This document shows, piece after piece, positions 61,362 through 63,984 of a stretch of DNA of 64,000 nucleotides. The stretch is from an uncultured Flavobacteriales bacterium (GTDB taxonomy: Bacteria > Bacteroidota > Bacteroidia > Flavobacteriales_E > Vicingaceae). Each line of letters begins with the position of its first letter. Positions within the stretch are counted from its first letter, which is position 1. The notes under the pieces are model-generated. The model made no database searches. It saw only the letters and a program-made list of their open reading frames with translations, and was not told the origin of the DNA. The stretch is from assembly GCA_905479995.1 (NCBI GenBank), contig CAJQON010000015.1:62001-126000 (forward strand), written 5' to 3'. Position numbers and translations under genes: made by a program.

Positions 61362-61747
61362 GAGGTTTAAATGTTGAAATAATTTAGCTTTTCAAATTTA
61401 TTTATTTTTTTCAATAAAGTAAGCTGCAAACAATATACGGATACTTTCGGTATTTATCGGTTATAATAAAAGCGGTTAATTAATTTGCCGTTTTTTAAGT
61501 TGTTTTAAATGAGCTGATAACTAAAGTTGCGTTAAAGAATGGATGGATGAAGCTGCGGGTAATTTATTCTGTTTTTACATCCGCTCGACAGGCTCAGGGT
61601 AAAGTGTACATCATATTCTAACGCCTCTTATTTGGATTAGATCCTCAATCTAGTTGAGGATTTGTATTATCTGGTCTTCGATCTTTAACTTCGTTAAATT
61701 CTTACACCGATAACGCCCATTCGGCTGAGCTCAGGGTAAACTATACT
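61362..61747. other. 386-base gap with repeated elements
   Basis: Non-coding. It contains TAAATTTG on the minus strand (61400-61393), a possible -7 element for the giant propeller gene; the repeat word TCGACAGGCTCAGGGTAAA (61585-61603) and its relative GCTGAGCTCAGGGTAAA (61724-61740); and the perfect hairpin ATCCTCAA-TCTAG-TTGAGGAT (61641-61661). These are short intergenic repeats of the kind frequent in Bacteroidota genomes. Confidence 0.65.
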
Positions 61748-61767
61748 TTATATGCTTACGCCTATAA
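61593..61767. repeat. Imperfect direct repeat pair, copies 137 bases apart
   Basis: Copy A starts at 61593 (CTCAGGGTAAAG..ATATTCTAACGCCT) and copy B at 61730 (CTCAGGGTAAAC..TATGCTTACGCCT). Copy B includes the last codons of the PP2C gene. Similarity is strongest at the CTCAGGGTAAA and ACGCCT ends. Confidence 0.5.
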
Positions 61768-63901
61768 CGCATACATCATCAATTTGTTCTAGGTTGCCTT
61801 TCCAATTTTCGAAGTTGGAGTTAATAATTTGTTTTTGTTCTTCCATTGTTTTGTTTTGTATAGAAAGAAGAAGGCTTCTGAAGGCTTTTGCTTTAAATTT
61901 CTTGCCTTTTTCTCCTCCAAACTGATCTACATATCCATCAGAAAAAATATAAAAGGCATCATTTTTCTGAAGCTCAAAAGTATGAGTGGTGTAGGGAACG
62001 GGATTATCGCATTTTCCTATTGGTTGTTTGTTGGCTTTAGTTTCAATTATTTCTCCGTTTCTCACAATCCATAACGGGTTGTTTGCTCCGGCATATTCCA
62101 ATTTATTTCCTGTTAATGAACAAAGTGCAATGTCCATTCCATCTTTCACTTCTTCGTCCGATTTTTCAAACTCTTGTATTACTATTTTTCTAGTTTTGGT
62201 CAGAATTTCTCCAGAATCAGTTAAGCCATGTTCTCTAACCGAGCGGTTCAGTGCGTTGTTACAAATAACCGAAACCATGGCTCCTGGAACACCATGTCCA
62301 GTACAGTCGGCCGCAGCAAATAATACTGTAGTTTCGTCATTGCGAACGGAGCTTTTGTGGAGAGAAGCAATCTGTTTATTTTCAGGCGATTGCTTTATGC
62401 CTCGCAAAGATGTCTCATTTGTTGATAATTCGACAGGTTCATTATGATAAATAGACTCCATCCAATAAAAATCACCAGCAACAATATCCTTTGGTTTATA
62501 AAGAATAAAGCTTTCCTGTAAATATTCTTTAACTACTTTGTTGGGAGGAAGAATGGCTGACTGAATACGTTTTGCATAAGTAATGGAGTCCATTATTTCT
62601 TTGTTCTTTTCTTCCAATTCAGAATGTGCTTCTTCAACTATTGTTTTTTGTTTTTCTACTGCTAATTTTTGCTCTTCAATTATTTTTTTTTGTTTTCGAG
62701 TGGCGCGTAAGCGATTAAATACAAAAATTAAAAAGATAATAACAAGTCCGAGTCCTGTTGCGGTAGCTCCTGTTAGAATTTTTTGTTTTTCCTTTTCTTC
62801 AAACTCAATGGCTAATACTTTGTCATGTTCGGCATCATCAATAGCTTTTTGTTTTTCATACTCATATCTTGCTTGTTGTTGAGCAGATGCTTTTTGAGTT
62901 GCTTTATTATGGGTGCTATCTTTCATAGAAATGTATAGTTTATACATTTCTAAAGATTTTTTGGAGGCACCTTGTTTTTCATGCACTATGCTTAAAACTT
63001 CGGCTGCATCTCTAATATATTCAGGTAAATTAGATTTTTGAGCCATTTCTAAGCTTTTATTGGCGTATTTAATTGCGCTGGAATTTTTGTTTGTTTCCAG
63101 ATATACCCACGCAATGTTATTGGTGGTTTGTATTTCTCCAAGTTTGTACTTGGTGTCTTGTTCAATTTTAAGGGCTTTAAAGAGGTATTCTAAACTTTTA
63201 TCATATAGTTTTTGTTGCTTATAAACCATTGCAATATTATCGTAAGAATCTGCAGCGGTATTTGCTCCAATTGTTAATCTACCTTCTAAACCTAAGTGGA
63301 GGTAGTGTAAAGCAGAATCTAAATCCCCTTTGTATTTGTATACTACTCCGATGTTGTTGAGTGATCGGGCTACACCAACCTTGTCATCTATTTCTCGCTC
63401 AATTTTAAGACCTCTTTTGTATATGCTAAAAGCTTTCTCTAAATCCCCTTGGTGTCTATATATTTGCCCAATAGTGTTAAGGGTGGGTGCAATTCCTGCT
63501 TTATGATCAATAGATTCACTAATTCTTAAACTTTCATGAAGGTATTCAAGGGCCAAAACAATGTTTCCTTTGTATTTATAAATAAATCCAAGATTATTTA
63601 ATGCGTCAGAAAGGGTTCTTTTTGCAGGAATTTGAAAGCTTGCATTGGTTTCTTTTTCTAGGTATGAATTACAATCGGTAACAATGGTGTCCCAAAATCC
63701 AGCTCGAGTATTCCAGAATGCTTCAGCGTATTTGGACCGAGCATCTAATAAAGTAGTGTCGTGATTTTTTGGGTTATTAATTTCTTCCATTATACTATCA
63801 GTATAATGTTTAAACCATTCATCATAAGTTTCTGAGTAACCTAATGAAGGTAGAATTAATAGGCTTATGTAGATGAAGAGTTTAATGGAATAAATATACA
63901 A
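61748..63901 (-). CDS. TPR-containing SpoIIE-like PP2C phosphatase
   Basis: A 717-residue membrane protein with a TTG start (no ATG precedes the signal peptide MYIYSIKLFIYISLLILPSLGYS). About residues 70-330 are periplasmic TPR repeats (ALNNLGFIYKYKGNIVLALEYLHESLRI; six or more units), then a coiled coil, a membrane helix (ILTGATATGLGLVIIFLIFVF, about 373-393), a second coiled coil and a SpoIIE-type PP2C phosphatase domain (about 440-717) with YKPKDIVAGDFYWME, AAADCTGHGVPGAMVS, VKDGMDIALCSL and FSDGYVDQFGG. A foreign-looking 40-residue insert lies between the first two blocks of that domain (see the repeat entry). It should dephosphorylate a regulatory protein, such as an anti-sigma antagonist, in response to a periplasmic signal. 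Confidence 0.9.
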   Translation of the reverse strand: MYIYSIKLFIYISLLILPSLGYSETYDEWFKHYTDSIMEEINNPKNHDTTLLDARSKYAEAFWNTRAGFWDTIVTDCNSYLEKETNASFQIPAKRTLSDALNNLGFIYKYKGNIVLALEYLHESLRISESIDHKAGIAPTLNTIGQIYRHQGDLEKAFSIYKRGLKIEREIDDKVGVARSLNNIGVVYKYKGDLDSALHYLHLGLEGRLTIGANTAADSYDNIAMVYKQQKLYDKSLEYLFKALKIEQDTKYKLGEIQTTNNIAWVYLETNKNSSAIKYANKSLEMAQKSNLPEYIRDAAEVLSIVHEKQGASKKSLEMYKLYISMKDSTHNKATQKASAQQQARYEYEKQKAIDDAEHDKVLAIEFEEKEKQKILTGATATGLGLVIIFLIFVFNRLRATRKQKKIIEEQKLAVEKQKTIVEEAHSELEEKNKEIMDSITYAKRIQSAILPPNKVVKEYLQESFILYKPKDIVAGDFYWMESIYHNEPVELSTNETSLRGIKQSPENKQIASLHKSSVRNDETTVLFAAADCTGHGVPGAMVSVICNNALNRSVREHGLTDSGEILTKTRKIVIQEFEKSDEEVKDGMDIALCSLTGNKLEYAGANNPLWIVRNGEIIETKANKQPIGKCDNPVPYTTHTFELQKNDAFYIFSDGYVDQFGGEKGKKFKAKAFRSLLLSIQNKTMEEQKQIINSNFENWKGNLEQIDDVCVIGVSI
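62334..62412. repeat. Palindromic repeat inserted in frame in the PP2C gene
   Basis: TCGTCATTGCGAACGGAGC...GAAGCAATC, a short spacer, and GATTGCTTTATGCCTCGCAAAGATG form a long imperfect palindrome (CATTGCGA with TCGCAAAGATG, GAAGCAATC with GATTGCTT). This is the form of a widespread Bacteroidota intergenic repeat. Here it is translated on the minus strand as SLRGIKQSPENKQIASLHKSSVRNDE-like sequence without breaking the frame. The adjoining TTCGACAGGTTCAT (62429-62442) resembles a second repeat family. Confidence 0.72.
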
Positions 63902-63957: not shown

Positions 63958-63984
63958 GTCACACTGAGCTTGTTGAAGTGGTAT
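63958..63984. repeat. Intergenic repeat word GTCACACTGAGCTTGTTGAAGTG
   Basis: Matches the short repeat CACTGAGCTTGTCGAAGTG seen in many Bacteroidota intergenic regions (one base differs), and relates to TCGACAGGCTCAG at 61585. Only one arm is present before the window ends. Confidence 0.6.

Follow-up and report, generated by a model that had tools for sequence, protein, structure and literature searches.

In-frame palindromes have been reported in Rickettsia and in other REP-rich genomes (PMC3733652). The Rickettsia palindromic elements (RPEs) are small palindromic repeats lying in frame within protein genes, and the CGTC-tagged repeats include two of them, RPE-4 and RPE-6 (PMC3733652). CGTC-tagged REPs (Di Nocera et al, 2013) carry an outer CGTC followed by ATTGC...GCAAT, with the two halves facing each other. 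They are mostly intergenic, with some known intragenic copies, count Bacteroidetes among their hosts and have no dedicated transposase (PMC3733652); Di Nocera et al found no enzyme for them. The GTAG REP/RAYT systems are likewise built on small non-autonomous palindromic repeats, and homing endonucleases and inteins place an endonuclease domain in a conserved host gene, at the same site in its homologues, and spread into insert-free copies.

Here we compare these systems with an insert in a phosphatase gene of an uncultured Flavobacteriales bacterium (genome G000), located in the analysed window, a stretch of 64,000 nucleotides. Like the RPEs, and RPE-4 and RPE-6 in particular, the element is a small CGTC-tagged palindromic repeat that lies in frame inside an open reading frame and is absent from homologues, so that the RPE parallel drawn in the initial annotation was apt. 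It differs from the RPEs in that the intragenic copies of its family converge on a single loop in a single protein family, in that this loop is also used by several unrelated repeats, and in that the inserts appear to pass between paralogues. The outer tag, the facing halves and the mainly intergenic distribution liken the family to the CGTC-tagged REP super-family, of which four families have been published; its spacers are longer and variable. In contrast to the GTAG REPs, it lacks a GTAG tag; no Y1_Tnp (PF01797) gene was found in G000, and mobilization by a RAYT was rejected on this ground. While in-frame palindromes as such were already known, what is new is that a single loop is used recurrently and by unrelated repeats, that inserts spread between paralogues and that DUF559 elements occur in frame.

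The host phosphatase and the boundaries of the insert

The host gene (61748–63901, minus strand) was delimited from the open reading frame list, Pfam and a homologue and encodes 717 residues. Its only Pfam matches are TPR repeats and a C-terminal SpoIIE domain that follows them (PF07228; score 70 bits, cut-off 25), and the conserved columns of the domain alignment include D31, D86, D141, D202 and D209. On the strength of this match and of the conserved acidic residues, the host is classified as a SpoIIE-type PP2C phosphatase. The 3.1-Mb genome contains about 24 SpoIIE/PP2C paralogues, a large expansion in which the N-terminal sensory parts vary.

The insert lies between FYWMES (62453–62470, minus strand), at the end of strand beta1, and VLFAAADCTGHG; the codons VLFAAA (62309–62326, minus strand), which open strand beta2 and lead into DCTGHG, follow it immediately, as seen in the translation and the aligned columns and, for FYWMES, also in the AlphaFold2 model. 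It comprises 42 codons (62327–62452, minus strand; residues IYHNEPVELSTNETSLRGIKQSPENKQIASLHKSSVRNDETT), slightly more than the approximately 40 residues at 62334–62445 that the initial annotation had recognized correctly as a real, in-frame insertion between the same flanks. The 717-residue frame runs through it, as had also been claimed. In the window phosphatase the spacing from the tryptophan to the DC motif is 51 residues, against a commonest value of 13 among the collected SpoIIE loops. In an alignment with the SiaA phosphatase domain (PDB 6k4e), which is both the nearest solved structure and the top fold match (E about 1e-19), 7 residues stand where the window protein has 45. An AlphaFold2 model (mean pLDDT 85) predicts the insert to be a low-confidence coil linking strands 31–39 and 78–86, consistent with the loop of the beta1–beta2 hairpin that the loop comparison and the 6k4e alignment indicate. 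The top full-length homologue (L167; 391 of 675 residues identical, 58%) has a loop of 13–20 residues, as do most paralogues, and we therefore rejected an ordinary conserved loop, which the initial annotation had named as one of its two refuting outcomes. The open frame, the retained catalytic residues and the constrained flanks suggest that the protein tolerates the insert.

A decayed copy of a CGTC-tagged repeat

Most of the insert DNA is taken up by a decayed palindrome, CGTCATTGCGA...GAAGCAATC/GATTGCTT...TCGCAA (62335–62412, no strand assigned), recognized from inverted repeats and homologous intergenic copies; on the plus strand the order is CGTCATTGCGA...GAAGCAATC...GATTGCTT...TCGCAAAGATG. 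The inverted-repeat search placed arms at 62337–62345/62402–62410 and inner arms at 62365–62372 (AAGCAATC) and 62388–62395 (GATTGCTT). The terminal CGTC is intact at the 62335 end and degraded at the 62412 end, and neither the inverted-repeat nor the folding score of this copy exceeds those of shuffled sequences (folding z −1.2, uninformative). This decayed copy is identified by its homology with other members of the family and not by its own symmetry. The same insert also contains what is left of another interspersed repeat, TTCGACAGGTTCA (62429–62441), identified through TTCGACARGYTCA, which has 15 exact sites in the genome and a longer form enriched in the window. Two 35-nt copies of a further repeat, GCTCAGGGTAAA..ACGCCT, adjoin the host gene at 61592 and 61729 (region 61584–61763), and CTCGACAGGCTCAG-type motifs stand beside it at 61584 and 63964 (the latter in region 63964–63977).

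In G000, exact CGTCATTGCGA occurs at 10 sites against 0.56 expected (P about 5e-10). Several of these CGTC-terminated sites form convergent pairs that are separated by 60–110 bp and enclose inner arms resembling GAAGCAATC/GATTGCTTC, and interrupted palindromes are exemplified by C24:20554, C37:70576, C8:5789 and C40:94330. Each half, CGTC-ATTGC...GCAAT, shows five contiguous pairs by eye; the stem of CGTC-tagged REPs is described as 8–9 bp long, starting with A-T pairs, with a loop of 4–5. Pattern searches, from which all repeat counts for G000 derive, recognized 12 further family members outside the loops, all of them intergenic or overlapping gene ends. The initial description of a palindrome of intergenic type, for which the lack of other genomic copies had been set as the refutation, therefore holds for the family, whereas the window copy on its own is not a significant palindrome. 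Intergenic copies align poorly because their spacers vary, and no covariance model was built. Of 120 related genomes, 67 contain a strict two-arm pattern, with up to 96 copies and near-zero controls in most; G000 itself has 4 matches to it and its control 2, and for this genome the CGTCATTGCGA count is therefore more telling.

Only two family copies in G000 lie inside proteins, one in the window gene (C15) and the other in a paralogue on C43, at the identical loop position. The composite of leader and palindrome that they have in common was found nowhere else in G000. At two intergenic loci (L041, G000:C2:90724; L066, G000:C40:90813), a second repeat of the TTCGACAAGCTCAG type is nested within a first palindrome; composites thus also arise outside genes.

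Inserts and flanks of paralogues differ in age

Comparing C15 with C43, we found a synonymous divergence (pS) of 0.30 in the insert and 0.72, near saturation, in the flanks (Fisher p 3.6e-5), a mismatch on which plain common ancestry of the two inserts was rejected. Seven genomes besides G000 show the same pattern, with insert and flank pS of 0.11 and 0.72 in G036, 0.14 and 0.86 in G040, 0.06 and 0.66 in G174, 0.00 and 0.54 in the genome of L218, and 0.32 and 0.34 against 0.80 and 0.75 in G006; it also holds for two of three pairs in G108 and for nearly all pairs in G052. In eleven pairs of ordinary long loops, used as a negative control, loop and flank values are about equal. The near-identity of the L218 pair has sharp edges, starting at the FYW codons and stopping at the FAA codons, and the two insert hosts of G040 fall in separate regions of the tree (a quick tree with modest support). 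The divergence mismatch, these edges and the G040 placement together indicate that inserts passed between paralogues at one site and left their flanks behind.

Two other histories have to be weighed against this one. The insert might be old, inherited from the common ancestor of the paralogues, with synonymous change lowered by strong constraint on DNA or RNA structure. The C15 and C43 inserts do occupy the same site and frame, with 62% identical residues, and their domains fall in one small, modestly supported tree group; this group, however, includes a member with a 13-residue loop, and the symmetry of the window copy is mostly lost, which argues that no structure is being maintained. At about 0.55, the dN/dS of the insert does not fall significantly below the neutral expectation, and the L218 pair is near-identical in the loop at a flank pS of 0.54. 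We regard such an old origin as highly improbable, while some constraint at the DNA or RNA level could account for part of the low synonymous divergence. Alternatively, one active repeat subfamily may have entered both paralogues separately, with no copying, this loop being the sole place where an in-frame arrival survives. The family is widespread in relatives and has reached the loop separately elsewhere in another reading frame, but C15 and C43 have the same composite in the same frame and nowhere else in the genome, and the G040 inserts differ by a pS of 0.14 in hosts far apart in the tree; we consider two separate insertions unlikely. The comparisons thus support a transfer or homogenization of the C43/C15 insert between paralogues after their divergence. 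Taken together, the 42 residues are probably a translated, decayed copy of a CGTC-tagged REP-type palindrome together with what remains of another repeat, sitting in the beta1–beta2 loop and copied between paralogues once C15 and C43 had diverged.

One loop, several unrelated repeats

The same loop is occupied in many relatives. We compared 91 loops of at least 27 residues, collected partly for their length and not for palindromicity, with 180 control segments of the same length from the same genes. An inverted-repeat z of more than 3 was reached by 41% of the loops and by 1% of the controls (Mann–Whitney p 3e-12 for palindromicity); the remaining loops include ordinary conserved ones. When a pattern was scanned across the class, 30 of 396 genomes had loops of about 27–47 residues, and the controls had none. 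The repeats involved are unrelated: CGTCATTCCGAACTTGTTTCGGAATC in G001, CTCCCTTGAGGGAGG in G007, CCCGATAGCTATCGGG in G365, CAGTTCACAGT in G036 and others, as well as CCCCGAAGGGG-type repeats in G052, G108, G112 and G285. A tree computed from 203 domains, with the loop excluded, requires at least 16 switches between palindromic and short states. The CATTGCGA motif is translated as S-L-R in G000 and as I-A-N in G042, G029 and G035, and these differing frames imply more than one independent arrival. In the few per cent of the G006 and G036 genomes that were sampled, copies of the loop repeats were not found outside SpoIIE loops, and the label "intergenic repeat" is therefore not supported for the inserts of those two genomes.

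In many relatives other repeats, and sometimes a whole DUF559 domain, fill this loop, which therefore resembles a landing site for mobile DNA across Bacteroidia. The initial annotation, which had concluded that such repeats move or spread, understated the case: several repeat families target the loop, and inserts are shared between diverged paralogues.

DUF559 domains between translated arms

A scan of 395 genomes detected four SpoIIE loops of 150–170 residues. They belong to three families, and each of them (L431, L432, L433 and L361) contains DUF559, a family that we take to be nuclease-like with a Vsr-like PD-(D/E)XK fold; a weak match to REase_MTES_1575 agrees with this. In G052, the arms CCCCCCGAAGGGGGG and CCCCCCTTCGGGGGG of a 161-residue loop surround an entire in-frame DUF559 domain, and further G052 paralogues carry short inserts whose ends are identical to those of this loop. 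The RecG protein of G000 (L404; C13:159902-160219) has DUF559 in frame between DEQHRFG..KG and PHVLVMTATPIPRT, with arms CCCAAAGGGAAG/CTTCCCTTTGGG, and the RecG proteins of G002 (L419) and G010 (L409) have it at the identical site. The flanking residues are almost adjacent in Thermotoga RecG (1gm5), against about 149 inserted residues here. In-frame DUF559 with translated palindromic arms is also present in MetH, LeuS, TsaB, RecJ and HsdR-type proteins (L401, L403, L406, L426, L414, L427, L402). In L425 (G052:C20), DUF559 is fused in frame close to the start of a 1890-residue open frame. Searches of the open-licence literature found no description of DUF559 inserted in frame and none of repeats inside SpoIIE loops.

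An endonuclease-like domain at one site of homologous genes, as in homing systems, is thus found in the four SpoIIE loops and the three RecG genes. Unlike in inteins, family searches found no splicing domain in the DUF559 cases, and the arms are translated. For the DUF559-associated repeats, sequence comparison makes a homing-like element without splicing plausible. Extended to the loop inserts, this reading would hold that at least the CCCC..GGGG family is mobilized by putative DUF559 endonucleases that cut insert-free conserved host sites and are translated without splicing, the short palindromes being deleted derivatives. The presence of DUF559 in every one of the loops of 150–170 residues, the common ends in G052, the recurrence of armed domains in RecG and the other proteins, and the spread among paralogues at a single site speak for it. 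On the other side, two of the four loops (L432 and L433) have decayed arms, and the LeuS cases, from three genomes, use at least two different sites. A Pfam search of the window protein found no endonuclease or other domain in its 42 residues, no DUF559 with CATTGCGA arms was seen, and the sole DUF559 of G000 sits in RecG, so that membership of the window repeat in a DUF559 system lacks support. Such mobilization of the loop inserts is a possibility that we entertain with some reserve.

Proposed mechanism and implications

For the preferred reading, in which the window insert was copied between paralogues, a simple course of events can be proposed. The loop would lie on the protein surface, distant from the metal-binding aspartates, and for this reason in-frame, stop-free arrivals would survive there, in a phosphatase that presumably still works. 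One paralogue would acquire an insert, which would then be copied into the identical loop of another, as in C15 and C43, after the domains had already diverged; most simply, a break in the loop would be repaired over a short tract, templated by the occupied paralogue. More broadly, and tentatively, Bacteroidia may have splicing-free in-frame homing elements, namely DUF559 between palindromic arms, translated in the host, together with endonuclease-free derivatives; the SpoIIE loop would be one of their homes, which other palindromes, including that of the window, would enter via breaks and repair from occupied paralogues.

These observations bear on how small palindromic repeats spread in the absence of a transposase, a question raised by the CGTC repeats, for which no enzyme was found by Di Nocera et al. 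In this one loop, arrivals across a bacterial class are recorded naturally: some relatives lack the insert, synonymous sites give relative ages, and some genomes have a candidate enzyme at that position. Through it, both the movement of such repeats and the origin of new protein segments out of non-coding DNA become directly testable.
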